Below are positions 371 through 29,070 of a stretch of DNA of 64,000 nucleotides, piece by piece. Made by a program: the position numbers and the translations under genes. This DNA comes from Pseudalgibacter alginicilyticus (lineage in GTDB: Bacteria; Bacteroidota; Bacteroidia; Flavobacteriales; Flavobacteriaceae), in NCBI RefSeq assembly GCF_001310225.1, contig NZ_CP012898.1, forward strand, positions 1,116,001-1,180,000, written 5' to 3'. The notes beneath the pieces were generated by a model. The model searched no databases and was not told the DNA's origin. It saw only the letters and a list, made by a program, of their open reading frames with translations. Numbering within the stretch: the stretch's first letter is position 1; each line of letters opens with the position of its first letter.

Positions 371-1885
371 TTATTCTACCAATTTCTTGTAACGCTGTAA
401 CCAAGGATCTTTCTTCATTTCTAATTGTAATATCAATTCTGCTTTTAGTGTTTTTTCCAAAGTTGAATCTACACCTATCAAATTATTTTTTTGATAGGGA
501 TCCGCCATATTATCATATAACATTTTATGTTCCACACCAGCTTTGTCTATTGCAATTACATACGTATGCCTTTGAGTTCTGAGTCCTCTATGCCCTGAGG
601 CTGGCTGGCCTTCTTCAATATAGTAATACATGACAGAGGTGGGACGTTTTCCTCTATTTTTTAAAATGATTGATGACAAATCTTGACCATCCAAATTTTC
701 AGGGATTCCATCAGTTGTTCCCAACATATTTAACAGTGTTGGCATAACGTCAATAGGACTTATTAATAAATTATCTTTTTGACCTGCTTTAATTTTCTCT
801 GGCCAACGAATAATAAAAGGTATATTAATTGCTTCTTCATACCAAATATTTTTAGACATTAGCCCATGGCTCCCCATCATTTCACCATGATCGGAGCTTA
901 TAACAACAATAGTGTTTTTATCTAACCCCTCGTCTTCCAAGGTTTTTAATACACGGCCTATTTGCTCATCAACTCCTGTTACCATAGCAAAATAATCACG
1001 CACATGTTCTTTTGCTAAATTTACACGATTTCTAGTGGCTCCATTATGAAATGCTAAATGACCAGCATCGGTTTGTAAATTGACATTACCTCTAACCAAT
1101 AACTCCTCTAAAGATTTATCTTTATAAGTTTCCAAATATTTTTCAGGCACATACTGATAAGGGGGGTGTGGAGGATTTACAGACCAAAAAAGTGCAAATG
1201 GCTTATTTCCATCTCTTGTTTTTTCTGAAGGGTTTTTCAAATAATCAATAATAACATTAGCTTCATGTATTGGAGACCATTCTTTTACAAAAGTTAGCTC
1301 GTCTTCTTTAGCATCATTTACCCAATAATGCGGCTCATTATGCACGTCAAAAGTCCCATAAGAATACCAAAAATTAAATCCGTGACGCTGTTCTTTAGGA
1401 GTATATGCATCCCATACAATAGAATCTTTACCTGGTATGGGAGGCGGTGAAGTAAGGTGTAACTTACCAACATAACCTGCATCATACCCATTTTTAACCA
1501 AAACATCAGAAAAACTAACATCTTCTTTTTGCCAAGAATTATTATACTTATAGCGTCTAGAGTTACTGTTACTCAATACATTATTATTATATGGTAATTT
1601 CCCTGTCATAAGCATACCCCGGTAAGGGCTACACAAAGGGAAACTGCTTATGGCATTTGAAATAACCATTCCTTCTTTAGCTAATTTATCTAAATTAGGT
1701 GTAACAACAGGGTCTTGATTATTAATCCCTATTGCTGCATTTCTTAACTGGTCGGGGAATATAAAAAGTAAATTTGGTTTTTGAACTTCATCAAGCTTTT
1801 CTGATTTTTTTTTGATTAAACTTATATAGCCTAATAACAATAAAATTGAAGAAATAGCAATTATATATTTAAAGGAATACCTCAT
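371..1885 (-). CDS. S1-family sulfatase
   Basis: A 504-aa arylsulfatase-type enzyme that would remove sulfate esters from the glycan. Residues 7-24 form a hydrophobic segment that anchors or exports the protein. The metal-binding start of the fold is PNLLFIFPDQLR (37-48), and the sulfatase signature C85-S-P-Y-R89 carries the cysteine that is matured to formylglycine. Later conserved elements are SSDHGEMMGSHG, which contributes Asp/His metal ligands, and a C-terminal arginine-rich segment (GHRGLRTQRHTYVI). The length is normal for S1 sulfatases. It lies 22 bp downstream of the GH88 gene and is probably co-transcribed with it. Sulfatase, GH88 and PL8 together point to a sulfated glycosaminoglycan-like substrate. 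The exact S1 subfamily and sulfate position cannot be read from the sequence. Confidence 0.9.
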   Translation of the reverse strand: MRYSFKYIIAISSILLLLGYISLIKKKSEKLDEVQKPNLLFIFPDQLRNAAIGINNQDPVVTPNLDKLAKEGMVISNAISSFPLCSPYRGMLMTGKLPYNNNVLSNSNSRRYKYNNSWQKEDVSFSDVLVKNGYDAGYVGKLHLTSPPPIPGKDSIVWDAYTPKEQRHGFNFWYSYGTFDVHNEPHYWVNDAKEDELTFVKEWSPIHEANVIIDYLKNPSEKTRDGNKPFALFWSVNPPHPPYQYVPEKYLETYKDKSLEELLVRGNVNLQTDAGHLAFHNGATRNRVNLAKEHVRDYFAMVTGVDEQIGRVLKTLEDEGLDKNTIVVISSDHGEMMGSHGLMSKNIWYEEAINIPFIIRWPEKIKAGQKDNLLISPIDVMPTLLNMLGTTDGIPENLDGQDLSSIILKNRGKRPTSVMYYYIEEGQPASGHRGLRTQRHTYVIAIDKAGVEHKMLYDNMADPYQKNNLIGVDSTLEKTLKAELILQLEMKKDPWLQRYKKLVE

Positions 1886-1907: not shown

Positions 1908-3176
1908 TTATATTTTTTCTTGTATTTTTTTCAATCTATCCAAAGCTTCAATATAATAATAGTCGGCATAAATTAAAGCCACATCAATTTCATGACCTAA
2001 CGATTTTGCACCTGTAGAATGTAATAAAAATGAATCTGCTTTTCCAACTGCCGAATACTTTTCGGAGCCTAAAGATTTTAGCATTTTTAAAGCTTCATTA
2101 TAATAACGCTCTTGATCTTCTTTATTATCAACAAGGGTACTTAAATCTAACAATGCTGAGGCTACAACTGCTGCTGCCGATGCGTCTTTTTCCTCCTTTG
2201 GATCATTTTGAACATCAAAATCCCAGGCAGGAACCATATCTTCTGGCAGAAGCGACAAATATTTATCTGCTAATTTTTGAGCAAAATCCAAAAACTTTTT
2301 GTCCTTAGTTTCTTTGTAAACCAAAGTATATCCATAAACGCCCCAAGCTTGACCTCTTGACCAACGACTATTATCAGCATACCCCTGTTTAGTGTGCCTA
2401 TTCAAAATAGCTCCTGAAATAGAATCATATTCAATAACATGCCATGATGTATAATCTGGTCTGAAATGATTTTTCATTGTAGTTTCAGCATGTTTAACTG
2501 CAATATCATAATGCGATTTGCTACCACCGTGCTTTGCCGACCAAAATAATAATTCTAAATTCAACATATTATCTATGATAGTAATGTGTTGCTGCCAGCG
2601 AGGGTGCATTTTATTAGACCATGATCTGATAGTTCCCACTTTAGGATTGTATCTACTAGCCAAAGAATTTGCTGATGTTATAAGAATATCTTTATACTCT
2701 TTTTTTCCTCCAATCTCGTAACCAAGCCCATAAGCGGGAAACATCATAAATCCAATATCGTGATGCTCAGTAATATTTTTAAAATCCTCAAATACCTCGG
2801 TTCGCTTAATAGCTTCTTCTTTCCATCTTTCATTACCTGTAGCTTCATAAGTGTACCACAAAATGCCTGGATAAAAACCAGAAGTCCAAATTAATTTATC
2901 ATTTGGTACTTGCTTCCATTCTGTTTCATTGGTTTCAATTAAACGCGGATGTTTAGTAAGGTCTGTTAATTTAGGTGCTGCTATCTCTAATTGTGATTCA
3001 CAGTCATTAATTAATTTATCTAAATCTAAACTCACATTGTTATCAGATGTTGCTAAAGCAATTTGTTGAGTTTTAGAATTTTTACAACTTATTATAAAAA
3101 CTAAAAGACCTGTAAAAAAAAGTTTTTTAAAAGGAAACCTTAGTTCTTTGAGTAAATTTAAATTGTTATCCATCAT
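1908..3176 (-). CDS. GH88 unsaturated glucuronyl hydrolase, lipoprotein
   Basis: This 422-aa protein matches glycoside hydrolase family 88, which hydrates the 4,5-unsaturated uronic acid left at the non-reducing end by polysaccharide lyases such as PL8. The (alpha/alpha)6-barrel hallmarks are visible: HHDIGFM with Asp140 and IIDNMLNL with Asp202. Their 62-residue separation agrees with the two catalytic aspartates known for bacterial unsaturated glucuronyl hydrolases (D88 and D149 in the Bacillus GL1 enzyme). The motif YADNSRWSRGQAWGVYG is also typical. A lipobox ending at Cys31 (FIISC) suggests a membrane-anchored, probably periplasmic enzyme. Two adjacent ATG codons make the start uncertain by one residue. 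A tandem repeat of the putative HTCS operator lies 82-117 bp upstream, so this gene probably starts its own transcript. Confidence 0.93.
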   Translation of the reverse strand: MMDNNLNLLKELRFPFKKLFFTGLLVFIISCKNSKTQQIALATSDNNVSLDLDKLINDCESQLEIAAPKLTDLTKHPRLIETNETEWKQVPNDKLIWTSGFYPGILWYTYEATGNERWKEEAIKRTEVFEDFKNITEHHDIGFMMFPAYGLGYEIGGKKEYKDILITSANSLASRYNPKVGTIRSWSNKMHPRWQQHITIIDNMLNLELLFWSAKHGGSKSHYDIAVKHAETTMKNHFRPDYTSWHVIEYDSISGAILNRHTKQGYADNSRWSRGQAWGVYGYTLVYKETKDKKFLDFAQKLADKYLSLLPEDMVPAWDFDVQNDPKEEKDASAAAVVASALLDLSTLVDNKEDQERYYNEALKMLKSLGSEKYSAVGKADSFLLHSTGAKSLGHEIDVALIYADYYYIEALDRLKKIQEKI

Positions 3177-3257
3177 AATTATTATTAATATTTATTTTTA
3201 GTCTCTCTAAATTTTTAAGAAACTTATGCAAAGCAAAGCATCATTCCGCAAAAAAAA

Positions 3258-3293
3258 GGGGGATATACGTTCTTCTAAAAGGGGTAACTGTTC
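3258..3293. promoter_or_regulatory. Tandem direct repeat, candidate HTCS operator upstream of GH88
   Basis: Two related 13-15-base units end in GTTC at 3272 and 3293, 21 bp apart: GGGGGATATACGTTC (3258-3272) and GGGGTAACTGTTC (3281-3293). Closely related pairs occur upstream of the genes starting at 4881 and 14812 at similar distances. Direct repeats about two helical turns apart suit binding by an AraC-type HTH dimer such as the C-terminus of the HTCS encoded at 15014-19162. The function is inferred. Confidence 0.55.
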
Positions 3294-3317
3294 TAATTGC
3301 ATTTACTTTGTTAAAAC

Positions 3318-3364
3318 AATGGAGGCCGAACTAAAAAATTGTTGATTTGTAGACGGCCTCCATT
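3318..3364 (-). terminator. Hairpin terminator after the discoidin-like protein gene
   Basis: An 11-bp perfect inverted repeat (AATGGAGGCCG at 3318-3328, complement at 3354-3364) with a 25-base loop lies between the stop of the gene ending at 3403 and the GH88 promoter region. The following T-run on the minus strand is weak, so termination may be partial. Confidence 0.5.
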
Positions 3365-3402
3365 TTATATTAATTTTGAACGCTAATTAACATCCTTATT
3401 TT

Positions 3403-4881
3403 CTAATTTATCAATACTTTTTTTGTAGCCACACCACCTGTTTGAGACTCAATTCTTAAAATATAAACCCCTTTAGAATAGTTTGAAACATTAATAGGCT
3501 GAGCATTCATTTTATTATAAATCACTTTACCTGTTACATCAATCAGTTTTACATTTTTAATATTGATATCAGAATTTAACTTACTAATATTTATAAAACT
3601 ATTGGATGGGTTTGGGTAAACTGCAAAAGCAGTTTTTAATTCACTGTCGTTATTTGTTGACAAAACAGAATCATCTACAGTAAAGTCAAGTTGGTGTAAT
3701 GCTGTATATGCACCTATTGGCGTCCAAGCTTCTGCCAGCACAAAACGATAATATCTATATGCTTGCGAAGTTGATAAAGTAATAGAATATTCGAAACCTG
3801 CTCCACTATTAGAACTAAACATTCCAAGAGGAGTACTTAAATCATCCCATGTACTATCGTCATTACTACCTTGAACAATCCACTTTGATTCATTCCCAGA
3901 CGTTCCTTGATTTGAAGTACCATTTACTAAAATATATCTAACTTCAGAAACAAGTATTGGATTGTATACACTCGCTACTTCAAATTTATAACCTTCTCCT
4001 ATTGGTATTAGCGATTGAGCCAACCTAGGAACAGTCGTACCCGTAGTTAAAACATCAGCCCATTTAGTTGTATTTGTAAAATTACTTTCTGAAATAGCCG
4101 CACTAGGGGTATTGAAAATATTCGTTTGTCCTGAAGAACTTGTGTTTAAAGCAGAAAAAGCTCCATTGGCTACATCTTGTAAGGTCGCATCAAATCTTAC
4201 ATCCGAAATATAAAATGTACCATGTTGGCTAACGCCAGCTTCATAAGCCGTGTCATCAGTTTCTATTTTAAATGCTACCGTTACCGATGAACTATTATAT
4301 GCTGATAAATCTAACTCTCCATATACATACGTTTGAGGTGAAACATCAGATGTTGCTATGCTACCAACAATATTTGCGGTTTCATTAGTCCAGGTTGCCG
4401 TATTTGGCAAATCGCCATGCGTATAATTTTCCGAAACCCAAACAGTAAGAGTTGCTCCTCCTCCAACAACATACCTTTGTTGTGTCCAAAAAGAAACCTT
4501 TGGCGCATTAGCTGTAGAAAGATCTTGATTAGTCATTAAAGCCCAAGCTTCAATTTCATGATTTAAAATTGACGGTGAACTACCTGACACATTACCAAAA
4601 GCTATGGCTCTTTGGTCTCTTGTTGCACCTGCTGGCACTCTATCAATTGGTCTAGAATTTTCATCAAAAACAGGGCTTGAATCAGTAGCATCAACAATAT
4701 CACTTACTCTTTTACCTAACTCAATAGCAGTCTGTCCTCCTAAGGCTACCTGTTGCACAGTAAAACCTCTCGTACCATTATCATATCTAAAATCTTCATA
4801 ATGGATTGTTTGTGCATTCATAGAGAGCACCATCATTCCAAATATTGAAAATGACAAGATTATTTGTGTAATTTTTTTCAT
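3403..4881 (-). CDS. Secreted T9SS protein with a YEDFRY module and a discoidin-like (F5/8 C) domain
   Basis: A 492-aa secreted protein with no recognised catalytic domain. It has a signal peptide ending in NAQ (residues 22-24), then a module starting IHYEDFRYD and running to about residue 235. An F5/8 type C-like domain follows (KWADVLTTG, then WIVQGSNDDSTWDDL and RYYRFVL, typical of discoidin folds). It ends in a type A T9SS sorting domain (VYPNPSNSFINIS through GVYILRIE to VLIN). The first module is clearly related to the C-terminal module of the PL8 lyase at 5055-8891. I infer a surface or released glycan-binding protein of this locus. It has its own upstream operator-like repeats and a downstream hairpin, so it may form a single-gene transcript. 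Confidence 0.75.
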   Translation of the reverse strand: MKKITQIILSFSIFGMMVLSMNAQTIHYEDFRYDNGTRGFTVQQVALGGQTAIELGKRVSDIVDATDSSPVFDENSRPIDRVPAGATRDQRAIAFGNVSGSSPSILNHEIEAWALMTNQDLSTANAPKVSFWTQQRYVVGGGATLTVWVSENYTHGDLPNTATWTNETANIVGSIATSDVSPQTYVYGELDLSAYNSSSVTVAFKIETDDTAYEAGVSQHGTFYISDVRFDATLQDVANGAFSALNTSSSGQTNIFNTPSAAISESNFTNTTKWADVLTTGTTVPRLAQSLIPIGEGYKFEVASVYNPILVSEVRYILVNGTSNQGTSGNESKWIVQGSNDDSTWDDLSTPLGMFSSNSGAGFEYSITLSTSQAYRYYRFVLAEAWTPIGAYTALHQLDFTVDDSVLSTNNDSELKTAFAVYPNPSNSFINISKLNSDINIKNVKLIDVTGKVIYNKMNAQPINVSNYSKGVYILRIESQTGGVATKKVLIN

Positions 4882-4954
4882 AATAAATAAATTTAAGTTA
4901 AACGGAAAAACATTTTGTTTGAAGTAAAATTACCTGATAATCAAATATTTTAAG

Positions 4955-4991
4955 AGGGCTTAACTGTTCTTAAGGGTGGGCATAGCTGTTC
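4955..4991. promoter_or_regulatory. Tandem direct repeat, candidate HTCS operator upstream of the discoidin-like gene
   Basis: Units AGGGCTTAACTGTTC (4955-4969) and GGGCATAGCTGTTC (4978-4991) end 22 bp apart, 71-110 bp upstream of the start at 4881. The spacing, order and CTGTTC core match the pairs at 3258-3293 and 14881-14915. Confidence 0.55.
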
Positions 4992-5054
4992 AAAAACCTA
5001 ATAATGACTTATTTTCACTGAAACAACAAAGGATATCCGTATTTCAAATAACTT

Positions 5055-8000
5055 TTAATTGATTATAATTTTTTTTATAATTACCTGAGCGTTATTTGTT
5101 TTTATAGCCAAAAAATAAAGTCCTTTCGAGAAATTACTTACAAGAATTGAATCGCTATTAACACGACTACTGTATATCGTTTTTCCGGTTATATCAATAA
5201 GACTCACCTCATTTATATCAATCTCCTCTTTTAAAATATCTATATTCAAAATATTACTTGTAGGATTGGGATACACATTAATATGATTCTCATTTAAAAC
5301 AGTATTTTTTTCAACAGATAAAGTTGTGGATTGCGCATAAAATTGTAAGTCAGAAAAATAAAATGTCCCATTTCTATTTGTACTACTATAGTTAGTATCA
5401 CTCCCTTGATAACGACAAGCTAAAGTAACTGAAGTTCCATTTGCTCCATTAGCATAAGGTGTTAAATCTACAACCCCCTTTACAAAGATAAGTCCATCTG
5501 ATGTTTCAGCTAATTTACCAGAATACAATGGTAGTACTGTCCATGATGTTGTTGTTGGGTTGCCTGTATATGCTGTAGAAACTAACATAGTTACAGTAGC
5601 AATATCACCATTACCATAACGTCTTTCTGTCCAAAACGAAGCATATTTATAAGTATCATTGGTATTAATTCGTGGGTTTGATTCTGTTAAATCTAAAGTT
5701 GTAAAAACAGCATATGCATCCACAGGAAAGTTTGTAGTTCCATCATTTCCTGAAATAGAAATACTCCTTTGGTCACTTGAATCCCCTTGAGGTATTCTAT
5801 TAGAAGGCCTATCCGTTTCTGGATTAAACAAATTTTTACTATCTGCTAAATCAGGAATATCGCTCACTCTATTTAAAATACTTGAAACATTAGTATGCCC
5901 ACCATCATTTTCAATATATTTAGTAAATCCATTATTCCCTAAATCATATCTAAAATCTTCGTAATATACTATTGGATAATCAGGGTTTTCATATCCATTA
6001 GAAAGCACAATATCAACAGGCAAACCATTTTTTGCCTCAATTGACAATACTGTTTCTCCTGTATTTACGGTTGCACTCACTGCACCTCCATTACTTGAAG
6101 CTAATGTCCACTCTCCATTAATTGTAATATCTATAATTCTTACTTGACTATCTCCATTATTCGCTGCAAAATTTAAATCTGGACTTACAACAGATATATT
6201 TAAATTATTACCAATTTCTTCAGCCATTACTAAGCATGGACCTAAGTTTTCTTTTATAGGTGTAGTTGTTCCATAATTACCCCCATCAAAAAGAGCATAG
6301 CCATATATGTTATTATATTTTACAATATGAGCTGTTTGATTTTTTTGAATAACCTCATAATAAGCCGTTTCTTCATTAGCCATATTAGCACTAAATGCTA
6401 CCATATCTGTGGCATTCGTTCCTGGTATGATAACATATTCATACCCCACATCAATTGGACTTGAGCCATGTGTTATATAAGCAGATGCAAAATTCCCATT
6501 TGTATCAGCTCCATTCCCTGTTTCAGAAGGAGAATCTTGATTTTTTCTATCAATAACCACAGAATTTCCACTCTTAACATAATACCCTGTATTTACAGCA
6601 TCCATTAACCAATGGTCAGCGGTATTAGATAAAATATTGTTATAAGGAAATGTAGCTACCTCAGTATTATTTATATTCACTGCAGCAGAGGTAGAACTTA
6701 GATAATTTTGAAATAAATTAGTAGCAATTAAACCAGATGCACTGTTTATGTTACTCCCTAAACAAATAAGTTTTCCATCAAAACAAAATACCGATTTTTT
6801 AAACTTAAAGTCCGCATCATGTGTTGAAGAAATGTCTTTTTGAGTAAAGTCCATTCCAAAAACACCATAATTCCCTTCTATATCCCTATCAATATAATAA
6901 TTTACTTTAGAACCAAATCTTAAACTTGCAGCAAAATTAGAATCTGTTGTTTCATCTAATCTACTTGTATCTGCCAACAGATCATTCCATGACAAAAATT
7001 TAGTGGTAGCACCTGGTGTTCGTCTCCAATCCCAGCCATTTATATTAAACTTAGAATTAGTATGTCCGCCTTGATACATAATTTCTATTGCACCATAACT
7101 TTGATACCTTCCATATCGATTATCTGAACTATAAATTTCTGAGCCCCAAAAATATTTATTAAACCCTTTAATATCGGCTACCCAATTATCTTGCCTATAC
7201 ACCCCTAAATTTGCAAAATTAACTTGCCAAAATCCCGTTGGTGCTACTTCAGTGCCATAAGTAGATGTTTCTGAATCACTGCCATACATGTAATTATAAG
7301 CCTTTAACAAATCAGTATCTACGGGACTTGCCAAACCTAAATCTTTCAAACCATTTTTAAATGATGGATTTACAAACGGATTTCTACCTGACAATGAATT
7401 TGGAATATCTCCACTTGCCGAAATTACCCGTGCTAATAACAACGCTTTTTTTAAAACCTCTTTTGTATTTGTTTCAACAGCAAATTCACCTTCTGATAAG
7501 TAATTTACAGCCTTTGATATTTCATTATAACCTAAAAAAGCATAACCTGGATAATAAGTATTATGATGAAACCCTGTAAAATCAATTTTCATTCCTTGAC
7601 CTTCCTTGGGGTAAAGCGTTAAAAAATTTTCTAAATAATTCTTATAGCCTTTTAAATATTGAACTTTTTCTGCATCGGTGCTTTTGTACAAACAAGCCCC
7701 TAATCTATTAAGAGAACGTGTATTAGCATCATCCATATTACTACTTGAGGCTGTTGGCTCCCAAATTCCATCTAAAGCAATATACCATTCTACCATTTTT
7801 TGGGCATCATTCCACAATTCTTCTGTTTTTAATTCAGTTTCCATCAAATGAATTGCTGCAGCAATATTTCGAAAGTTATATCCTATATGATGAATGGTCT
7901 CCATGATACTACCATCTGCAAAACCTTGGTCTAATAAGTACCGTACTGTATTAAGAAAATAATTTTTGCTTGTTGAACTTAATGTATATGTATAATCTCT

Positions 8001-8891
8001 AGCAAAAGTTAAAATATAATCATCAACTGCTTTTATATTTTGTGAATTAGAATAATCTTGACCATACAGCGGACTCCCTTTTATCAAACCTCCTGAATAA
8101 TCAATATTTAGTGCATTGTATTTAGAAATTGCACTTGTAACTGCACTAACGCTTGGTGCAGAACCTTTAATTGAGGCATCATATTTTTGTTTAATACTTT
8201 CTAAATCTGATAATTCTTGTGTTGTTGGTGTTGTTAAAGGAAGTTTCATTAAAGTTTGAAAATACATCATATCTCCCCAATGTTCATTATTATTTAAGGT
8301 GATAAATGGCAATTGATAATCAGCACTTCTACTCGTATTTCTAGCCATTGTATAATCTATATAATCAAAAAAGAATGTACCACTGCCTGTACTTGGTGCT
8401 TTAATTTTCATGGTGGTGATATTGTTAGAACTTTTTATACCTGACATTTCATTTACGTAGCTTGCTGATGCTGCTCGCCACCCATAAAAATTTAACTGAA
8501 AGGTATAATAAAACTGTAATGTATTTGTATTGTCATAAAACTCAACAGTCATTGATGAATCTGAAATTGCAGACACATTATACACCCACATTCTAAACAT
8601 ATTGTAATAATACCCATCTACTTCAGACGGTACGAGACCGTGACTTTGCAAATTATCAACAGTAATAATAGCATCCGCTGTCCAATTCCATTCTAAGGAT
8701 TGATTTCCTAATTTATAATGATCTGTGGATGTACTTAAAGTTCCATTTGAAGTATTCCAATGAGCAGGTACTGATGCTTCAAAAGATTCATCTTGTGCAT
8801 ACATTTGCATACTCAAACACAACACAGTACAAGCTATTAATACAAACTGTTGTATAGTTATCTTTAATCTTTTATGTATAAACTGTATCAT
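5055..8891 (-). CDS. PL8 polysaccharide lyase (chondroitin ABC lyase-like) with T9SS tail
   Basis: A 1278-aa secreted lyase that would cleave a uronic-acid-containing chain by beta-elimination, producing the unsaturated ends used by GH88. After a signal peptide (to about 33) there is an N-terminal jelly-roll-like domain (about 35-185). The alpha-helical catalytic domain carries H443 and Y450 (GFHHNTYYPGY) and R503 (NSLSGRNPF); these spacings match H501, Y508 and R560 of Proteus chondroitinase ABC I. NRYGRYQSYGAIEIM carries the likely conserved Glu. Beta-sandwich domains follow, then an extra YEDFRYD module shared with the neighbouring secreted protein, and a type A T9SS sorting tail starting VYPNPTSN. 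The substrate could be chondroitin, dermatan or hyaluronan; the sulfatase favours a sulfated one. A hairpin separates it from the upstream DUF5017 gene. Confidence 0.9.
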   Translation of the reverse strand: MIQFIHKRLKITIQQFVLIACTVLCLSMQMYAQDESFEASVPAHWNTSNGTLSTSTDHYKLGNQSLEWNWTADAIITVDNLQSHGLVPSEVDGYYYNMFRMWVYNVSAISDSSMTVEFYDNTNTLQFYYTFQLNFYGWRAASASYVNEMSGIKSSNNITTMKIKAPSTGSGTFFFDYIDYTMARNTSRSADYQLPFITLNNNEHWGDMMYFQTLMKLPLTTPTTQELSDLESIKQKYDASIKGSAPSVSAVTSAISKYNALNIDYSGGLIKGSPLYGQDYSNSQNIKAVDDYILTFARDYTYTLSSTSKNYFLNTVRYLLDQGFADGSIMETIHHIGYNFRNIAAAIHLMETELKTEELWNDAQKMVEWYIALDGIWEPTASSSNMDDANTRSLNRLGACLYKSTDAEKVQYLKGYKNYLENFLTLYPKEGQGMKIDFTGFHHNTYYPGYAFLGYNEISKAVNYLSEGEFAVETNTKEVLKKALLLARVISASGDIPNSLSGRNPFVNPSFKNGLKDLGLASPVDTDLLKAYNYMYGSDSETSTYGTEVAPTGFWQVNFANLGVYRQDNWVADIKGFNKYFWGSEIYSSDNRYGRYQSYGAIEIMYQGGHTNSKFNINGWDWRRTPGATTKFLSWNDLLADTSRLDETTDSNFAASLRFGSKVNYYIDRDIEGNYGVFGMDFTQKDISSTHDADFKFKKSVFCFDGKLICLGSNINSASGLIATNLFQNYLSSTSAAVNINNTEVATFPYNNILSNTADHWLMDAVNTGYYVKSGNSVVIDRKNQDSPSETGNGADTNGNFASAYITHGSSPIDVGYEYVIIPGTNATDMVAFSANMANEETAYYEVIQKNQTAHIVKYNNIYGYALFDGGNYGTTTPIKENLGPCLVMAEEIGNNLNISVVSPDLNFAANNGDSQVRIIDITINGEWTLASSNGGAVSATVNTGETVLSIEAKNGLPVDIVLSNGYENPDYPIVYYEDFRYDLGNNGFTKYIENDGGHTNVSSILNRVSDIPDLADSKNLFNPETDRPSNRIPQGDSSDQRSISISGNDGTTNFPVDAYAVFTTLDLTESNPRINTNDTYKYASFWTERRYGNGDIATVTMLVSTAYTGNPTTTSWTVLPLYSGKLAETSDGLIFVKGVVDLTPYANGANGTSVTLACRYQGSDTNYSSTNRNGTFYFSDLQFYAQSTTLSVEKNTVLNENHINVYPNPTSNILNIDILKEEIDINEVSLIDITGKTIYSSRVNSDSILVSNFSKGLYFLAIKTNNAQVIIKKIIIN

Positions 8892-8927
8892 AACAACATT
8901 TTTTAGAAGTTAACTTTTAATGATATT

Positions 8928-8982
8928 AAAAACCCCCAATACCTATACAAAATATTCAGTATAGGTTAATGAGGATTTTCTT
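8928..8982 (-). terminator. Long imperfect hairpin between the DUF5017 and PL8 genes
   Basis: Perfect 8-bp arms ACCTATAC (8941-8948) and GTATAGGT (8959-8966) extend with mismatches through a C-rich and a G-rich arm. Read on the minus strand, the hairpin is followed by GGGGGTTTTTAA. It could act as a partial terminator or RNA-processing site that lowers PL8 expression relative to SusCD. Confidence 0.45.
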
Positions 8983-9003
8983 GCTATTAATATATTTTAG
9001 TAT

Positions 9004-9936
9004 TTAATCTGTGACTGTAATAGTAAATTCTTGCACACTATCTTTTTGCCCATAAATTGTTTCATTATTTCCAACAAATGTTATTGTATAAGTACCTGCT
9101 TCTGTGTAGATATATTCAAAAGTTTCCAACTTTTCAGAGTAAGTCTTTAAAGCAATTCCCTTATCTGGTGATACAGACCCTGATAAATTTACAGGCTTAG
9201 TTATTAACCAATCATCATTGGTATATTCTGCAATACCACCATGCATTCTAAATTTAGTTGATTGATCTATCCAGTTATCATATGACGTATTTGAATTAGT
9301 TCCTTCTACATTTACAGCAACCCACCCTGGACTTTGAAGGCTGGCAATATCTAATGTACGTGTTTCGTCGAGTGCAAGTTTTAAATCAAAACTATAAAAA
9401 TCGAATATACCTTGCCTATTTCCTTCTGATGTTTTTCCTTCAGCATATACTCTTAATGCAAAATACAACGGTTTGTCTGTTGATAAATCCGTAATATCAA
9501 CAACACCTGAGTTGGTCAAATTATAAGATCTATCGGTAGCAAACACAAATCTATCAGAAATATCTGTCCATGTAGCTGCTTGTACATCTTCAGCAGTTCC
9601 TGACCCAGAATAGTCTGATGAAAATAATAGCTGCCAAGCACCATCTGTTCTGCTTGTTCCATCTTGATAATGTCTGGATGTATCAAATGATAATGAAAAG
9701 CTTCCTTCTGCTTTGGTTCTATCTCTGTTTTTATACTCATGACCAAATTCTCCTGAATAAAAGTTCAAAAAATTAGGAGCATTACTCACACTAAACAGAA
9801 TAGGCTCTCCTACTTTAGCTGTTGAATCAAAGCTAACTTCAAAATTAGGGGTATCTACGGCTTCTAAATCTTCGCAACTCTGAAATACAAAAGTTACAAG
9901 AAGCAACATTGTTAATATATAAACTGTTTTTTTCAT
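9004..9936 (-). CDS. DUF5017-type surface lipoprotein in the SusE/F position
   Basis: The reading frame is open from 9972, but the ATG at 9936 is preferred. It gives MKKTVYIL followed by a hydrophobic stretch and a lipobox ending in FQSC (Cys21), and it avoids overlap with the susD stop. The mature part starts with a Cys-Glu-Asp lipoprotein sequence and contains NFLNFYSGEFGHEYKNRDR, the pattern I associate with DUF5017/choice-of-anchor proteins next to SusD. A PKD-like C-terminal segment (YTEAGTYTITFVGNN) follows. The probable role is a cell-surface glycan-binding accessory protein of the SusCD complex; no enzyme motif is visible. It lies 29 bp after susD in the same operon. Confidence 0.75.
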   Translation of the reverse strand: MKKTVYILTMLLLVTFVFQSCEDLEAVDTPNFEVSFDSTAKVGEPILFSVSNAPNFLNFYSGEFGHEYKNRDRTKAEGSFSLSFDTSRHYQDGTSRTDGAWQLLFSSDYSGSGTAEDVQAATWTDISDRFVFATDRSYNLTNSGVVDITDLSTDKPLYFALRVYAEGKTSEGNRQGIFDFYSFDLKLALDETRTLDIASLQSPGWVAVNVEGTNSNTSYDNWIDQSTKFRMHGGIAEYTNDDWLITKPVNLSGSVSPDKGIALKTYSEKLETFEYIYTEAGTYTITFVGNNETIYGQKDSVQEFTITVTD

Positions 9937-9965
9937 TTTAAATGCTTTATAATTAATATATCTTA

Positions 9966-11621
9966 TTACCAACCTATGGTTTGCTTTAAATTTGTATTAA
10001 CCCCCAATTCTTGTTCTGGAATTGGAAGGATGTAATGCTTACTTAAATCAAAATCATTATAACCATCATAATAATTAAATGAAGCATTCATTACATTTAG
10101 TCTTGGGCTTGTGTTAATAGGTACATCTCCAAATACAGGAATATTATTTGGGCCTAATTCAAATGTTCCTAAAGTGGTCCAATCTTCATTGAAAAAAGTA
10201 GGGTCGGCCGCTAAAGTTTCCATCATACTTTTTGTCTCATTTACTTTTTGCTCTAAGATGCCCCATCTTACCAAATCATATTTACGCTGTCCTTCAAAAC
10301 ACAATTCTAATAAGCGTTCTTCTTGTATAACAACATCGTTAACAACTGTAATAGGTGTAGCATTAGCTCTATTTCTCACACTATTAACAGCATTTAAAGC
10401 TAGTACTGAACCAGGTGTTAATTTATTTTCTGCTTCAGCATATATTAAATACATTTCAGATAAACGCAACACTGGCCAATGATGCTCTCCATAACTGGTA
10501 TTAGTTGTGTTTGACTCTAAATATCTACGGTATTTAGATGCAGGAATCATAAATTGACTGTTTATAAGACCTAACTGACAGTTATCATCTCTCTTGTTAT
10601 AATATGGAAGAGTATTCCAAAGCCCTCTTTCATCATCAGGATCTGATCTATATTTTAAAACTAAAGAAACGGTTGCGTAAGTTAAAGCAAAGCCTTTTCC
10701 TTTTAAATCATCTGAAGTACCACAATTTTCATCGTCAAATTTTATACCAAATGCGGAACCTAATTTAGAAGATTGATTAGAATCTAAATTGGCAAAAGAA
10801 AAGCCTACCTGAAATAAAGTTTCTTTTGTTTCATAATTCCCCAATGCCAATTGATTAAAAATATCAGCATAGCTAGAGTTTAATTCATGATATGAATCAT
10901 CTATAACCTTTTTACTCCATTCTTTAGCTTTTTCATACGCCCCTTCCTCATTATAAGGCTCACTTGCCATGTACAGATACGCTCTAGCCAACAAGCCTCT
11001 TGCAGCACTTTTACTTGCTCGGCCAGGTGTAGCTTCAGCTGCAGTAGGTAAAAAAGCTTCTGCAAATTCTAAATCTGAAACTATTTGTTTGTAAACATCA
11101 ATACCTGGAGTTCTAGGAAGTAATTGTTTATTGGTTTCTTCTAAAGGCATAGGAATACCTTCAATACCTCCAAACGCTTTCTGTATATCAAAATATAAAA
11201 AGGCTCTTAAAAAACGCCCTTCTGCAGTAAATTCCTGTTTTATGTCTGCATCTAAAGGTGAGTTTTCTAAACCTACTAATAGCGTATTCGTTGCAGAAAC
11301 CCCTTCGTAATAGGTAGCCCAAATATCATTTAATATAGGCTCTGCTGCTGTGAAATTATTTTTAAGAATGTGTTGTGTTCCTACTCTATTATAAAACCCT
11401 TCATCTGTCCAATCTGTAGGGTACTGTGCATTAATTATAGCTTCTCTGTATACTGCAACTACCCGACTATATGCGCCAGTTAAACCTGCTAAGGCACCTG
11501 CTGGTGTGTTATATAAGTTTTCTGAAGTGATATTGTCATTTTGTGCTATCTCTAATTGATCATCACAACCTTGTGTTATAAAGGCAATGAGAACTATGAA
11601 TACTATGAATTTTATTTTCAT
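9966..11621 (-). CDS. susD: SusD/RagB-family outer-membrane glycan-binding lipoprotein
   Basis: A 551-aa lipoprotein with a lipobox ending at Cys19 (ITQGC) and the usual SusD layout. An N-terminal NITSENLYNTPAGALAGLTGAYSR segment is followed by TPR-like helices (EFTAEGRFLRAFLYFDIQKAFGG and ARGLLARAYLYMA). The C-terminal region carries RLSEMYLIYAEAENK, EERLLELCFEGQRKYDLVRWG and the closing HYILPIPEQELGVN. SusD caps the SusC transporter and captures oligosaccharides at the cell surface. It is 11 bp downstream of susC, so the two are co-transcribed. Identification as a family member is secure; the ligand is inferred from the neighbouring PL8, GH88 and sulfatase genes. Confidence 0.95.
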   Translation of the reverse strand: MKIKFIVFIVLIAFITQGCDDQLEIAQNDNITSENLYNTPAGALAGLTGAYSRVVAVYREAIINAQYPTDWTDEGFYNRVGTQHILKNNFTAAEPILNDIWATYYEGVSATNTLLVGLENSPLDADIKQEFTAEGRFLRAFLYFDIQKAFGGIEGIPMPLEETNKQLLPRTPGIDVYKQIVSDLEFAEAFLPTAAEATPGRASKSAARGLLARAYLYMASEPYNEEGAYEKAKEWSKKVIDDSYHELNSSYADIFNQLALGNYETKETLFQVGFSFANLDSNQSSKLGSAFGIKFDDENCGTSDDLKGKGFALTYATVSLVLKYRSDPDDERGLWNTLPYYNKRDDNCQLGLINSQFMIPASKYRRYLESNTTNTSYGEHHWPVLRLSEMYLIYAEAENKLTPGSVLALNAVNSVRNRANATPITVVNDVVIQEERLLELCFEGQRKYDLVRWGILEQKVNETKSMMETLAADPTFFNEDWTTLGTFELGPNNIPVFGDVPINTSPRLNVMNASFNYYDGYNDFDLSKHYILPIPEQELGVNTNLKQTIGW

Positions 11622-11632
11622 GATTTTTTATT

Positions 11633-14600
11633 TTAAAATGAAACTTTTAAACCTAAGCTAAATGTTCTATGCTTTGGGTAAGCAGAATAATCAATACCTG
11701 GTGTAATCAAAGAACTAGCAACAGATACTTCTGGGTCAAAGCCCGAATAGTCTGTCCATGTAATTAGATTTTGTCCTGATAGATACAATTCCAAACTATT
11801 CAGCTTTAACTTTTCTATAGCTTCCTTATTAAATTTATAAGAAAAATTAACCGTTTTTAATCGTATATAAGACCCATCTTCAACAATGCGAGACGAAATA
11901 TCTTGAAAACCTTGCCCATTAGCTCTGTGCATATCTGTATCTTGATTTTCTGGGGTCCATCTGTTTAGCGTTGTTGCTAATTGATTTTGGTTTGGTCTGT
12001 CCATACTCTCAAGTACTAAACGGTTTGCATTTAATATATCATTTCCATAAGACCATTGTAAAAATGTACTCAATTGGAAATTTTTATACGTAAATGTATT
12101 TCCAAAACCTCCAAAATGTTTTGGCAAACCATTTCCGATAATAGTTTTATCACCACCTGTAATTACACCATCGCCATCTAAATCTTTATATTTTTCGTCT
12201 CCTGGTTGATGACTTCTATAACTAGGCTGTCCTCCAAGTAAGGTGTGTGTGGAAGCATCAGGATCATAATTTTCAAAATCTTCTGGTTGATATACACCAT
12301 CCGACACATAACCAAACATATTACCTAAGGCCTTACCTTCTTCAACAATATATTGATTGGTACTTAATAACCAGTAATAATTTGGTTGTCCAAAAATTGG
12401 TTTTGATTCCGGTAATGATACAATGGTGTTTTGATTGAAAGAAATATTAAAATCTGAAGTCCATTGAAAATTTTTGCTTTTAATATTAACTGTGTTTAAG
12501 CTAAATTCCAAACCTTTATTTCTTACTTGTCCAGAATTAGTCCAAATAGAGGAATAACCTTGTGATAAAGCAGCATCTGCATTTATAAGAAGATCATTGG
12601 TGTCTTTCTGATATACCTCAACTAACAAAGACAACCTGTCTTCAAAAAAGCCCATATCTAACCCTAAATTATACTGCTCTGTTGTTTCCCAAAACAAATT
12701 TGGATTGGCCCCATAGCTTGTTGGTCGTTGCCCTTGAACGGTTTCACCTCCATAAAAATATGATGCATCAGCATCCGTTAAAAATTCAAATCTTGCAGTA
12801 CTAGGAATTCTATCATTTCCTGTTTTACCATAACCTGCTTTAAACTTTAATTGAGAAAAAACATTTAGATTTTTGATAAATTCTTCTCTATCGGCGTTCC
12901 ATGAAACAGCTGCTGATGGAAAATATCCAATTCTGTTCTGTTCTGGAAAATTTGAAGATCCATCACGTCTTAAAGATGCCGTAAATAAATATTTGCCTTT
13001 ATAACCATAGTTAATTCTTCCTAATACTGAAAAAATTCTTGATTCATCTGTACCATTATTATCATCTGAACTATCTAATGTTCCTCCATCTAAAGAATTA
13101 ATACCTAATGCCTCTAAATACTGAGGTATATCAATTGATCTAAAATAAGTTGATGAATTTTTTCTAATATTTAAAGTCACCCCTAATAAACCATCAATAG
13201 AATGGTTGTTAATCCTTTTTTTATAATTTATTGTATTAACCGTAGAAAAGTTTTTCCATTTTTGTTCGTATAACGAACCGTTAATTCCATCAATTTTACT
13301 TAATAATCGACCATAAACTGTTTGACTATTATTAAAAATCCCTGTGGTTCTGAATTGACGACTAAAACTAGCTTTGGTTTCTAAGGTAAAATCTGAGGTT
13401 AATTTATATTTTAAACTTAAATTACCTATAAATTGATCATTTTCTCGTTTTCTATATTCATTTTCTAAAGACACAATAGGATGCCACACAACAACATTAA
13501 AACCATCATAATCATCATTAACCTGTGCTAAAGGGTCTACACCTTCAGGATAGTCAATAAATTTATTTGCTACATTGTTGTAAGTTATCAAACTTCTTAA
13601 AAATGAATACGATGAACTTCCGTTAGTATCGAGCCCTTCTTGTATGTAATTAGTATAAAGCACATCTACCGTAGCATCAAGTTTGTCATTAACTTTATGG
13701 TTAACGGTAATGCGTCCATTCAATCTATTATATTCTGAATTTAATAATGAGCCTTGATCTTCAACGGCATTAATTGAAGCATTAAATCTTGTCACATCAG
13801 TACCACTTGATATATTAAGTTTGTGTGTTTTTGAATAAGCAGTTCTAAAAGCTTCATCTTGCCAATTTTTCCCTTCAACGCCTACATAATCTTCAATATC
13901 TCCAACTTGTACACTTTGCCCCAAATCATCATCAAAAATAGAAAAGAAACGTGTTGTTGTACTTGATTCATTAATTTCTGATGACAATTTTAAAAAATCA
14001 TAAGGTTCTAAAACATCTAATGTTTTTGTCACATTTTTTACATCTAATCGCGATTCATAAGTAATTTTTGTTTTTCCTGATTTAGCGCGTTTAGTTGTTA
14101 TAATAATTACACCATTTGCACCACGCACACCATAAATAGCTGTTGCAGAAGCATCTTTTAAAACAGACATAGATTCTATATCAGAAGGGTCAACAATACT
14201 TGGATTAAAATTTTCAATAATAAAACCATCCATTACATATAAAGGTGAGTTATCTCCATTAACGGTATTACCACCTCTTATAACAATATTCATACCTTCT
14301 CCAGGCTCTCCACCTCCAGCACTTACTTGAACACCTGCAACACGTCCAGCTAAAGCCTCGTCAAAATTAGCAACCGGAGCTTCCGTTAATTTATCCATTT
14401 TAACTGAAGCTACTGAGCCTGTAAGATCTTTCTTTTGAACACTACCATAACCTATTAATAACACGTCATCCAATTGTTGAAGATCTGGCTTTAACGAAAT
14501 ATTTATTATACTTTTATTTTCAATAGGTTGCACTATAGTTTTATAGCCCACATAACTAAACGTTAAAGACACGCCCTGTTTTGCTTGTATAGTGTATTTA

Positions 14601-14812
14601 CCATCAAAGTCGGTGGTAGCACCATTAAGAGTCCCTGTTTCTAATACATTAGCTCCAGGAAGTGGTAAACCTACTTCATCTGTTACTACTCCTGTAACAG
14701 TTATTACTTGTGCATATGCTGAGTAACTACACAATGCAACAAAAAAGACCATCAAACAAACAAGTTTGCATTTTTTTGGCTTTGTTAAAATTAGTTTAAA
14801 ATGATTTTTCAT
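11633..14812 (-). CDS. susC: SusC/RagA-family TonB-dependent outer-membrane transporter
   Basis: A 1059-aa TonB-dependent transporter for oligosaccharide import. It begins with a signal peptide (to about residue 34, SAYAQ), then a carboxypeptidase-D-like regulatory domain (GVVTDEVGLPLPGANV, GATTDFDGKYTI, FSYVGYKT). A TonB-box/plug start (DDVLLIGYGSVQKKDLTGSV) and the plug hallmarks (VIRGGNTVNGDNSPLYVMDG, SMSVLKDASATAIYGVRGANG, VIIITTKRA) follow. The rest is beta-barrel and ends in an aromatic residue (LGLKVSF). Length and features are normal for SusC. It is the first gene of the core operon susC-susD-DUF5017, and a tandem operator-like repeat lies 69-103 bp upstream. Confidence 0.96.
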   Translation of the reverse strand: MKNHFKLILTKPKKCKLVCLMVFFVALCSYSAYAQVITVTGVVTDEVGLPLPGANVLETGTLNGATTDFDGKYTIQAKQGVSLTFSYVGYKTIVQPIENKSIINISLKPDLQQLDDVLLIGYGSVQKKDLTGSVASVKMDKLTEAPVANFDEALAGRVAGVQVSAGGGEPGEGMNIVIRGGNTVNGDNSPLYVMDGFIIENFNPSIVDPSDIESMSVLKDASATAIYGVRGANGVIIITTKRAKSGKTKITYESRLDVKNVTKTLDVLEPYDFLKLSSEINESSTTTRFFSIFDDDLGQSVQVGDIEDYVGVEGKNWQDEAFRTAYSKTHKLNISSGTDVTRFNASINAVEDQGSLLNSEYNRLNGRITVNHKVNDKLDATVDVLYTNYIQEGLDTNGSSSYSFLRSLITYNNVANKFIDYPEGVDPLAQVNDDYDGFNVVVWHPIVSLENEYRKRENDQFIGNLSLKYKLTSDFTLETKASFSRQFRTTGIFNNSQTVYGRLLSKIDGINGSLYEQKWKNFSTVNTINYKKRINNHSIDGLLGVTLNIRKNSSTYFRSIDIPQYLEALGINSLDGGTLDSSDDNNGTDESRIFSVLGRINYGYKGKYLFTASLRRDGSSNFPEQNRIGYFPSAAVSWNADREEFIKNLNVFSQLKFKAGYGKTGNDRIPSTARFEFLTDADASYFYGGETVQGQRPTSYGANPNLFWETTEQYNLGLDMGFFEDRLSLLVEVYQKDTNDLLINADAALSQGYSSIWTNSGQVRNKGLEFSLNTVNIKSKNFQWTSDFNISFNQNTIVSLPESKPIFGQPNYYWLLSTNQYIVEEGKALGNMFGYVSDGVYQPEDFENYDPDASTHTLLGGQPSYRSHQPGDEKYKDLDGDGVITGGDKTIIGNGLPKHFGGFGNTFTYKNFQLSTFLQWSYGNDILNANRLVLESMDRPNQNQLATTLNRWTPENQDTDMHRANGQGFQDISSRIVEDGSYIRLKTVNFSYKFNKEAIEKLKLNSLELYLSGQNLITWTDYSGFDPEVSVASSLITPGIDYSAYPKHRTFSLGLKVSF

Positions 14813-14880
14813 TTCTGTATTGAGTTTTTATTATAGTTTTTGTTCCATGTAAAATTAGGATGAAACATATTAAATAAAAG

Positions 14881-14915
14881 GGGGGTTAGTGGTCTTAAAA
14901 CTGGGGGTAGCTGTT
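14881..14915. promoter_or_regulatory. Tandem direct repeat, candidate HTCS operator upstream of susC
   Basis: Units GGGGTTAGTGGTC (14881-14893) and GGGGGTAGCTGTTC (14902-14915) end 22 bp apart in the short gap between susC and the HTCS gene. They match the pairs at 3258-3293 and 4955-4991. The rest of the 14813-15013 gap shows nothing else clear. Confidence 0.55.
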
Positions 14916-15013
14916 CAACTTTACACAAATCAACTGTTTGTAAGCTACTTATGTTTTTCAAAGTACCAAACAGAGATCGTTCTAATATTTTATTAGTTTG
15001 TTGATTTTTACCT

Positions 15014-18000
15014 TTAAGCACCTTCATTCTTAAAATCTCCACTGTGATTTTGACGGTACTCAGAAGGTAATTCATTAAATAAATTTTGAAAGGATTTTCT
15101 AAAATGCTTCAAATCATTAAATCCTAAATCATATGCAATTTCTGAGATATTTAATTGAGACTGAACAATAAGTTGCCCTGCTCGTTTCAATTTAATTGTT
15201 CTTATAAATTCAGTAAGCGATTGTCCTGTTAGTGCTTTTAACTTTCTATACAATACAGAACGACTCATACCCATTTGTTCTATAAAATCATTGATTGAGA
15301 ATTCTGAATTTGACAGGTTAGCTTCCACTAAGTCTATTGCTTTTTGTAAAAACAACTCATCTGCAGAAGTCACTGTTAGTTCTTTAGGTTGCAGTATAAT
15401 GTCTTTTCTAAATTTATCAATCAAGTTTTTTCTAGATGTTAATAAATTAGTAACCCGTATTTCTAAAATATTAGCATCAAATGGTTTTGTAATGTATGCA
15501 TCTGCTCCTAAAGTGTATCCTTGTACTTGGGCATCTTCTGAAGTTTTTGCCGTTAACAATATAACTGGAATATGGCTTGTTAAAATGTTTGTTTTAATAT
15601 GTTCACATAAGGTAGTACCATCCATAATGGGCATCATTACATCACTTATAATTAAATCTATATTATTTTCTTTAGCTATTTCCAATGCTTTTTCTCCATT
15701 TTCAGCTTCTAATATGTTGTTGTTATTTTTAAAAATATCTTTAATAAACAACCTCACTTCTGCATTATCTTCCACCAATAAAAGTGTAGGTTGCGATTCA
15801 TTAATAGTAGCATCATCTGAACCCAAATCTTCTAATAAAGATTCTTTTACTAAAAAATTGGATTGTTCAGAGTAAAACGAATCATCAATTTTTACATCGT
15901 TAGATTGTGAAACTATTTCATTGGCTTTTAGGTGTTGTTTTCCTAAAGGAAGAGTAAGAATAAAGGAAGTGCCTTTGCCTTCTTGGCTTTTAGCTTTAAT
16001 TTTTCCATAGTGTAGTTTTACCAAATTTTTACATAAAGCCAAACCAATTCCTGTTCCTGTTCGTGTGTTCTCATCTTCATCCAATTGATAATACCTATCA
16101 AAAACGGCTTTAATACTTTTTTCTGGTATGCCCCTTCCGCTATCTTTTATAACCAGTTTCAGAAATTCTGTATTGGGTAATAATTTTCTTTTTTTAGTGA
16201 TAGTAGATAAATTTATAGAAATTTCACCTCCATCTGGAGTAAACTTAAATGCATTGGATAATAAATTAAAAGCTATTTTTTTAAGATTGATTTTATCAAA
16301 CCAAACCTCTATAGTGTCTTCTGAAGCATAAAATGTATAATTAATTTGTCTGACTCTTGCTAATTCATCAAATGATTGCTTAATATCCTCTATAAACGGC
16401 ACAATATTATTTTTGGACGCATGAAGTTTTAATTTTCCTGATTCGCTTTTTCTAAAATCAAGCAATTGGTTAATCAATTGTAAAAGAGCACTAGCATTGC
16501 GATGCATAATTTCATGCTGTCTCTGTACAAATTCATTTCCTGTTTTTTGTTTAAGCATGCGTTCTAACGGACCAATAATTAAAGTCAATGGTGTTCTAAA
16601 ATCATGGGAAATATTAGTAAACAACCTTAATTTCATTTGGTTTATTTCCTCCATTCTTTCTTTTTCCAAACGTTCTTGTTTCAATTCATTCTTTTCATGA
16701 ATTCGTATCAAGGTTTGTTTTCTTATCACTAACACTATAGATAGTAAAATGATGGAGTATATAAGGTAAGCCCACCACGTCTTCCATGGTGCTGGTAAAA
16801 TATTAACTTTTACATGAGCACCTTTTTCATTCCACAAACCATCATTGTTAGATGCTTTTACCTTAAAAAGGTATTCTCCTGCATCTAAATTTGTATAGGT
16901 GGCAGATTTTTTATTCCCTATATAATTCCAATTAGCATCAAAGCCTTCTAATTTATAGGCATACTGATTTTTTTTAGGTTGAGAATAACTTAAAGCTACA
17001 AAATTAAAACTAAACACATTCTGATTGTGTTTAAGGGTCATTTCTTTATTAAGATTATTTTTGGGTAAAAAGGGCTTATTGTTTACTAAAATTGAAGTAA
17101 CAGAAACTGGAGGAATAAAACTATTTTCTTGAATGTTTTTTGGATTGTAAAAATCAATACCATTGGTGCCTCCAAACATCAAATCACCATTACTTAATTT
17201 TATAAACGCTCCGTAGTTAAACTCATCACTTATTAAACCATCAGATACATCAAAGTTTTTAAATTGACGCGTATTTAAATCCAACCTACTCAAGCCATGA
17301 TTTGTACTCAACCAAAGCGTGTTAGAATCTGCAGGCAAAATACTATATATAACCTCATTTGGCAAGCCTTCTTGCATACCATATTTTATACTCTCTTCGG
17401 TATCTTGATGGTAATAATACAACCCATCACCTTCTGTTGCTATCCATAAATTTCCATTTGAATCTTCAGAAACACAAAGTATGGCATTGGTGCTATAGGC
17501 ATCTAACTTTTCCTTATAATTAATGGAAGTAATTTTTTTTGTTTTAATGTTAATTTTTGCAAGCCCTTTACTTCCTCCCACCAATAAAACATTTTTATCA
17601 GAAGTTTTTGAAATGCTATAAACCAAATTACCAATGCTATTTAAAGGGTCTTTAATTCTAGTGATAGACTCTGTTTTAACATTTAAAACATTAACTCCTC
17701 CCCCTGAAGTACCAATCCAAATATTTTTTTGATAATCTTCAAATAAGGCAATAACCCGATTATTACTTAAACTTGTAGAATCATCGGGTATGTTTCTATA
17801 TTTTTTAAATTTAAATGGGCGGTTTTCTGGGTTTAGAAAATTAAGTCCTCCATCATGGGTTCCTATCCAAAAGTTACCATTTTGAGTCCTAATCATTGAT
17901 TTTACATTATCTGTACTAAGACTATTAGGGTTACCTCCATCATGCATATAATAGGAGAAAGTACCCGTTTTTTTATCATAAAAATTAATACCACCGCCCT

Positions 18001-22998: not shown

Positions 22999-23161
22999 GT
23001 GCTGCAAGTAAGCCTTATGAAATTAATTGTTTGTTCGAGCTTGCTTACGAAAATCCTCGCTAATTTATTCGATTTTTATTTGCTAACTTTCGTGCTTTAC
23101 CTCGCACCTAATCATACATAAACACAATACCTGCAAACTAAAAAAAAGAAACTGCATCAAA
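22999..23161. repeat. Intergenic unit B of the recurring spacer
   Basis: Contains GAAATTAATTG, CTTACGAAAATCCTCG (23044-23059), TTTTATTTGCTAA (23074-23086) and an end AAACACAATACCTGCAAACTAAAAAAAA. The second and third blocks match unit C with one or no mismatches, although the two units are 3.6 kb apart and the genes between are unrelated. Confidence 0.55.
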
Positions 23162-27474: not shown

Positions 27475-27488
27475 TCTATTTTTAAATT

Positions 27489-27860: not shown

Positions 27861-27865
27861 GGTTT

Positions 27866-29066: not shown

Positions 29067-29070
29067 AAAT

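Follow-up and report, generated by a model that had tools for sequence, protein, structure and literature searches.

A 64,000-nt stretch of the Pseudalgibacter alginicilyticus genome ('the window'; positions 1116001–1180000 of a single-contig genome of 3,992,500 bases) contains a polysaccharide utilisation locus (PUL) next to a gene for a hybrid two-component system (HTCS) regulator. Three genes of this PUL – susC, a gene encoding a secreted protein (labelled 'discoidin-like' in the original prediction) and the GH88 glucuronyl hydrolase gene – are each preceded by a pair of direct repeats, set at a near-constant distance from a −7 promoter box. As judged from the sequence, these paired repeats are most probably the activator sites of the adjacent HTCS, occupied at approximately −72 to −36 by a dimer of its AraC-type DNA-binding domain upon activation by phosphorylation. 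Coordinates are collected in Table 1.

Each half-site is 15 bp long and, on the coding strand, close to (A/T)GAACAGnTAnCCCC. The half-sites start at 3260/3281, 4957/4979 and 14882/14904 (plus-strand numbering), which bears out the original prediction of three repeat pairs at these places, as well as its half-site spacings of 21, 22 and 22 bp and its distances of 69–117 bp to the start codons. The consensus printed there, GGGnTAnCTGTTC, which reads GAACAGnTAnCCC on the coding strand (the genes of the locus lying on the minus strand), proved approximate: at up to two mismatches it recovers five of the six half-sites and misses the one at 14882. A single half-site is not rare, with 15 matches in the window at up to two mismatches as compared to 10.04 expected, and 15 being reached in four of 100 shuffles; counting single half-sites with this consensus gave a signal not separable from chance and was set aside. 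The exceptional feature is the pair. When a matrix built from two of the promoters was used to scan both strands of the 64 kb for the left-out third, the left-out pair scored 29.5 (GH88), 30.9 (secreted protein) and 32.8 bits (susC), with the best place off the sites reaching 17.7, 21.3 and 16.2 bits, respectively.

The operator is conserved in orthologous loci that carry an orthologous HTCS. Related loci came from a SusC search, which gave seven named loci (Flavivirga, Gelidibacter twice, Lutibacter, Wocania, Maribacter and Mucilaginibacter), and from an HTCS search, in which 26 of 397 family genomes, our own included, had a match at E up to 1e-300; the DNA around HTCS matches was retrieved in 20 stretches. 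Thirteen loci (six of the named ones and seven of the 20 stretches) have an orthologous susC at 59% identity or more; training excluded Mucilaginibacter (SusC 29%) and the 13 remaining stretches. A matrix made from the six half-sites of the window alone finds a pair of at least 17 bits at 11 of the 12 orthologous susC genes for which upstream DNA was at hand. Retraining on the relatives only yielded 29 sites of at least 14 bits in the 13 loci: 14 before susC (two of them before a second, non-orthologous susC), nine before discoidin-type genes (three labelled PL8 by best hit) and six before GH88. Half-sites are spaced by 22 bp in 26 of these, by 21 bp in one and by 23 bp in two. Two training sites are doubtful: that of GH88 in L033, which overlaps the assigned start of the open reading frame (ORF), a start that is probably misplaced, and that of GH88 in L036, at 21 bits. 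With the same matrix nothing of at least 8 bits was found before susD, DUF5017, sulfatase or HTCS genes in the 13 loci, and six other ORFs scored 8.2–12.6 bits, the GH88 gene of L045 among them (12.6). These promoter scans covered the DNA upstream of ORFs on their own strand. A repeat scan took both strands of the window and of the 13 whole loci and returned 34 pairs of at least 20 bits, 32 of which lie within 200 nt before a same-strand ORF.

Turned back on the window, the relatives-only matrix gives the three sites 40.3, 36.0 and 32.2 bits, as compared to 1.7 bits upstream of PL8 (the next-best window promoter examined), −5.0 upstream of the sulfatase and −6.0 upstream of the HTCS gene, and there is no further pair of at least 20 bits on either strand of the 64 kb. 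The earlier claim that no copy precedes these three genes or the second PUL of the window thus holds. A model built from 26 sites of other genomes finds the three sites at E 1.2e-7, 2.7e-6 and 1.1e-4; the single further window match up to E 10 is at position 40165 (E 0.22).

A feature independent of the operator matrices, as it lies outside the sequence they cover, is a TAnnTTT(A/G) box downstream. Accepting at least five of the six letters, the box starts 22–24 nt past the operator in all 32 sites (29 of the relatives and three of the window): at 23 nt in 26, at 22 nt in five and at 24 nt in one, with every other offset reaching six sites at most. TAnnTTTG is the sigma-A −7 box of Flavobacterium psychrophilum, located at −12 to −5 according to the available text of PMC9723704. 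Because this position was taken over here, the operators are predicted to lie at approximately −72 to −36 and the leaders to be approximately 33, 39 and 48 nt long. The fixed distance of a −7 box from each operator also supports the earlier claim of at least three promoters in the locus. No TTG-like element stands out between operator and −7 box in a column listing of these promoters, and a −33 motif was, as reported in the part of PMC7366714 at hand, not found in F. johnsoniae. Scans for sigma-70 promoters and terminators yielded no more than in shuffles.

To search at genome scale, we used two models, both built from the 26 sites of relatives with 22-bp spacing: R1, covering the operator only, and R2, covering the operator plus the −7 region. 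For each, the best 150 first-look candidates of the 3.99-Mb source genome were scored. With R1 the three window sites take ranks 1–3 (E 7.6e-6, 1.7e-4 and 0.0069), the next match being at 0.13; with R2 they again take ranks 1–3 (E 4.2e-12, 4.1e-11 and 6.4e-6), followed by matches at 2.9e-4 and 0.011. The original prediction had named a motif scattered over random genome positions as grounds for rejecting it; instead, the three sites outrank all other matches in the genome. No operator was found in L039, the stretch to the left of the window, where the three pattern matches were weak and not above chance and the best R2 match reached 11.6 bits (E 0.069). Across 149 family genomes (best 32 candidates per genome, stricter filters), R2 at E up to 1e-5 gave nine matches in four genomes, all in this locus beside a relative of the HTCS, including one in G115 that lies before a second susC and was absent from training. 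A further site outside training, in G094, scores 26.7 bits with the relatives-only matrix and 35.1 bits with the window-only matrix (R2 E 1.2e-5 in 20 kb). It lies beyond the HTCS gene and points away from it, approximately 150 nt before the start of a divergent ORF, and the GH88–sulfatase–PL8 set there (L115 4871–11017) is orthologous to the GH88 unit of the window (GH88 76% and PL8 70% identical). The GH88 unit thus sits on the other side of the HTCS gene with the operator in front, and the operator has therefore been kept before this unit despite the rearrangement.

The fourth R2 match of the source genome (G000:C1:2746010–2746083, minus strand, equal to L080 11010–11083; E 2.9e-4) precedes a gene followed by susC and susD, in a cluster divergent from a paralog of the HTCS (35% identical). 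It is a direct repeat of its own, with GAGCAAATnnCACC occurring twice at 22 bp and a −7 box at an equal distance, so that the geometry is kept and the letters differ. The fifth (C1:3074016, plus strand; R2 E 0.011) precedes a nucleotidyltransferase/kinase operon. As a possible distant regulon member it was followed in 12 other genomes: 11 of them have the gene, no R2 match in the retrieved stretches is better than E 0.15, and a weak similar site was seen in Lutibacter only (9.8 bits). As a separate observation, the source genome has two copies of the nucleotidyltransferase gene, each with a kinase-like gene behind it (L081 9016–9074, equal to G000:C1:3074016, and L104). One copy carries an HTCS-like half-site and a −7-like box; the second, like several relatives, has a TGTGTTCGArCACA palindrome, of which the own-genome instance lies near a LacI gene. 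The operon was possibly duplicated and then changed its regulator.

What ties the operators to the HTCS is, besides their position, the recurrence of the signal beside other HTCS genes. We scanned 29 held-out stretches, 28 around other HTCS genes (some overlapping) plus the Mucilaginibacter locus. R2 gave 25 matches at E up to 0.1, three of which are the same DNA seen twice. Twelve of the remaining 22 lie on the strand of the HTCS gene and at most 300 nt behind it, a zone that makes up approximately 1.0% of the strand-sequence; six lie before another ORF and four do neither, one of these at a stretch edge. In 21 stretches that were not fetched for an HTCS, R1 gave three matches up to E 0.5, in stretches fetched for their hits. 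Single-base shuffles (eight per locus) reached 25.4 bits once, so lone locus-wide scores near 25 are weak. We consider it improbable that another regulator – LacI-type, Crp-like or a stand-alone AraC protein – binds the sites and that HTCS control is indirect. LacI-like genes, as judged by eye, do adjoin the HTCS gene in two named relatives (L035 and L036), and the source genome has several further AraC-type matches; however, no such gene is found among the annotated neighbours of the locus. LacI operators are palindromes, whereas the sites here are direct repeats. Furthermore, in eight annotated loci a related signal lies behind the HTCS gene even though the nearest susC is merely 28–39% identical, which argues against this alternative. 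The assignment of the sites to the HTCS thus draws support from related loci, from held-out HTCS loci and from the form of the Bacteroides motifs discussed below; from these we infer binding itself.

The HTCS, one of nine full-length HTCS genes in the source genome, shows the domain order of the class (Pfam): a periplasmic Reg_prop/Y_Y_Y sensor, HisKA, HATPase, receiver and AraC-type helix-turn-helix. Among solved structures, its closest relatives (4a2l, 3v9f and 12aw) are named as two-component or hybrid two-component proteins. By eye, the phosphorylation residues are intact, with the kinase His in NISHDFRTP and the receiver Asp in LIISDVMMP, and the S-HIP part of the S/CHIP-DK motif is present. 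This motif has been linked, in the accessible part of PMC11253607, to an inhibition of DNA binding that phosphorylation relieves. The same source describes an HTCS with a changed S/CHIP-DK motif, BT2391, that was shown to repress, and the HTCS could likewise act here as a repressor or dual regulator. We deem this less probable still than another regulator: the sites lie upstream of the −7 box and not across it, and the HTCS retains S-HIP and both phosphorylation residues. In B. thetaiotaomicron, moreover, a susC reporter needs the sensor BT3334 for its chondroitin response (PMC9845299, in the text available). It is because S-HIP is present and because BT3334 is needed for that response that we read the sites as putative activator sites for a phosphorylated dimer. 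Least probable of all is that the repeats are promoter copies left by gene duplication within the locus and no longer functional: in L045 a second susC/susD pair is, by eye, preceded by a close copy of the susC promoter together with its operator (8156–8229), but the bases between and around the half-sites differ among the three window sites and across the 13 loci, with half-sites, spacing and −7 box kept.

Several observations weigh against regulation of these promoters by the HTCS, or against the strength of the case for it. The 13 loci were picked by SusC identity, but after the first scores had been seen. With the window-only matrix just four of seven promoters of orthologous GH88 genes (77% or more identical) reach 17 bits, the others scoring 10.2, 6.9 and 7.9, and Lutibacter susC scores 7.3 bits; the scan upstream of ORFs found no site at the second discoidin-type gene of L043. 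Two of the 34 pairs precede no ORF at up to 200 nt: one scores just at the threshold (L044 4223, 20.0 bits), and the other (33.0 bits) lies at a greater distance before the second susC of L045. Three of the four genomes with R2 matches had supplied training sites, so the informative part of the 149-genome search is that no such match occurs in the other 145. R2 includes general promoter composition, which possibly accounts for part of the held-out enrichment; R1, applied to 26 held-out stretches at E up to 0.5, places five of ten matches behind the HTCS gene, three before other genes and two elsewhere. Operator score and identity of the DNA-binding domain are weakly correlated (rho 0.40, p 0.07, 21 held-out loci), and for this reason the correlation is not relied on; a stronger one (rho 0.73–0.75, 33 loci) was set aside, as it included training loci and was partly circular. 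Finally, the Lutibacter HTCS has the motif at only 58% identity in the DNA-binding domain, and no site was found in the 20-kb stretch of an HTCS with 56% identity (L046; best 12.2 bits).

Activation by the HTCS, which we continue to favour, could proceed as follows. The periplasmic sensor would bind a degradation product of the polymer, probably an oligosaccharide of chondroitin type, and phosphotransfer within the HTCS would free its AraC-type domain. Two such domains would then occupy the tandem half-sites, two helical turns (22 bp) from each other and on the same face of the DNA. Since the sigma-A −7 box is kept 22–24 nt downstream, the promoter-proximal subunit would adjoin the place expected for a −33 element, and RNA polymerase would probably be recruited directly. 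Three units would be switched on together: susC–susD–DUF5017–PL8, the secreted binding protein, and GH88–sulfatase–PL8–sulfatase.

The gene content is that of a chondroitin-type PUL: a susC/susD pair, a PL8 chondroitin lyase, GH88 and sulfatases. The nearest relatives of the lyase are chondroitin ABC lyases (7eip, E 3.1e-91, and 1hn0), and the matches of the GH88 enzyme, led by 3wiw, include an unsaturated chondroitin disaccharide hydrolase; the substrate would accordingly be a chondroitin-type glycosaminoglycan. The GH88 unit probably extends past the window end. The 'discoidin-like' label of the second unit did not stand, having come from the F5/8 match of one ortholog only, below threshold (E 0.0012, 19.4 bits versus a cut-off of 28.2). 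The N-terminal module (residues 26–242) matches PDB 8jiy (E 7.6e-40). Conceivably, 8jiy belongs to CBM100, which is named as a chondroitin-binding family in the accessible parts of PMC11943901 and PMC11122601. The secreted protein may act by itself as a surface binder of glycans. The 8jiy-like module is common to this protein and the PL8 lyase (residues 968–1193). Between the gene of the second unit and the GH88 operator lies an 11-bp perfect inverted repeat with a 25-nt loop (3318–3364), perhaps the end of that unit. Elsewhere in the window, an apparent mobile island (22042–40521) separates the two PULs; its genes encode PD-(D/E)XK, SMEK, a conjugation coupling protein, DUF5712, an AbiEi-type antitoxin and an nSTAND ATPase.

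Table 1. Operators, predicted promoter boxes and genes of the locus (window coordinates unless L039, the stretch left of the window, is given)
Feature	Position	Strand	Basis or remark
Operator 1 (susC), two 15-bp half-sites 22 bp apart	14881..14917	-	R1 genome E 7.6e-6, rank 1; R2 47.9 bits
Operator 2 (gene of the 'discoidin-like' secreted protein), half-site pair at 22-bp spacing	4956..4992	-	R1 genome E 1.7e-4, rank 2
Operator 3 (GH88), half-site pair at 21-bp spacing	3259..3294	-	R1 E 0.0069, rank 3; R2 E 6.4e-6, rank 3
Predicted -7 box, susC promoter, TAATTTTA	14850..14857	-	23 nt past operator; predicted start ~14845
Predicted -7 box, 'discoidin-like' promoter, TAATTTTA	4925..4932	-	23 nt past operator; predicted start ~4920
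Predicted -7 box, GH88 promoter, TTGCTTTG (5/6 letters)	3229..3236	-	22 nt past operator; predicted start ~3224
HTCS regulator (Reg_prop/Y_Y_Y sensor, HisKA, HATPase, receiver, AraC-type HTH_18)	15014..19162	-	Pfam domains
susC, first gene of unit 1	11633..14812	-	TIGR04056 E 8.6e-272
susD, unit 1	9966..11621	-	PF07980
DUF5017 protein, unit 1	9004..9972	-	PF16409
PL8 lyase, probably end of unit 1, without own operator	5055..8891	-	close to chondroitin sulfate ABC lyases
Secreted protein (type IX secretion tail), 'discoidin-like' gene, unit 2	3403..4881	-	N-terminal module resembles PDB 8jiy
GH88 unsaturated glucuronyl hydrolase, start of unit 3	1908..3176	-	3wiw E 6.5e-93; Pfam match below cut-off
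Sulfatase, unit 3	371..1885	-	domain match
Second PL8 and second sulfatase, left of window	L039 15218-18289 and 13560-15170		follow first sulfatase

The outcome is a well-supported and directly testable prediction of where an HTCS outside Bacteroides binds and of how its promoters are laid out. Operator and fixed spacing together should help to predict the members of a PUL regulon, and the −7 spacing is a concrete proposal for how an HTCS could activate promoters without a conserved −33 element. We raise, as a possibility to which we do not yet commit ourselves, that HTCS promoters of Flavobacteriaceae follow one strict plan: half-sites 22 bp apart, then approximately 23 nt, then the −7 box, a conserved −33 element being absent. 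The HTCS would then supply the upstream contact, and paralogs would be insulated by the letters of the half-site (as with the repeat at the 35%-identical paralog) under an unchanged geometry. If this were true, HTCS regulons could be read from raw genomes.

No flavobacterial or footprinted HTCS motif was recognised among the papers listed by a full-text literature search, most subscription papers being outside its coverage. The closest precedent is the work of Ravcheev et al. (2013), the available text of which (PMC3878776) gives predicted motifs for 16 of 36 B. thetaiotaomicron HTCSs, all of them direct repeats, on average 21 bp apart, and proposes a dimer on one face of the helix. Shared with the Bacteroides HTCS regulons are the two-site direct repeat upstream of PUL operons beside the HTCS gene and the dimer model, the likeness being one of repeat form and spacing; by contrast, the present case belongs to another bacterial family, and a fixed distance to a −7 box is not mentioned in that part of the source. 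In gene content the locus is likened to the chondroitin–hyaluronan locus of BT3334 (HTCS_Hya), also HTCS-controlled and with susC, lyases and a glucuronyl hydrolase (PMC3878776 and PMC9845299, as far as accessible), where the sensor is required for the chondroitin response; here, in difference to it, GH88, the sulfatases and the second lyase appear to form one unit with its own operator. The TAnnTTTG-type −7 box is that of the flavobacterial sigma-A promoter, as described in the portion of PMC9723704 at hand, but here it is coupled at 22–24 nt to an upstream tandem operator. Since direct repeats approximately 21 bp apart were already reported for Bacteroides HTCSs (PMC3878776), our finding joins a known class of HTCS control; what is added is the flavobacterial half-site, its specificity at the scale of the genome and the fixed distance to the −7 box.

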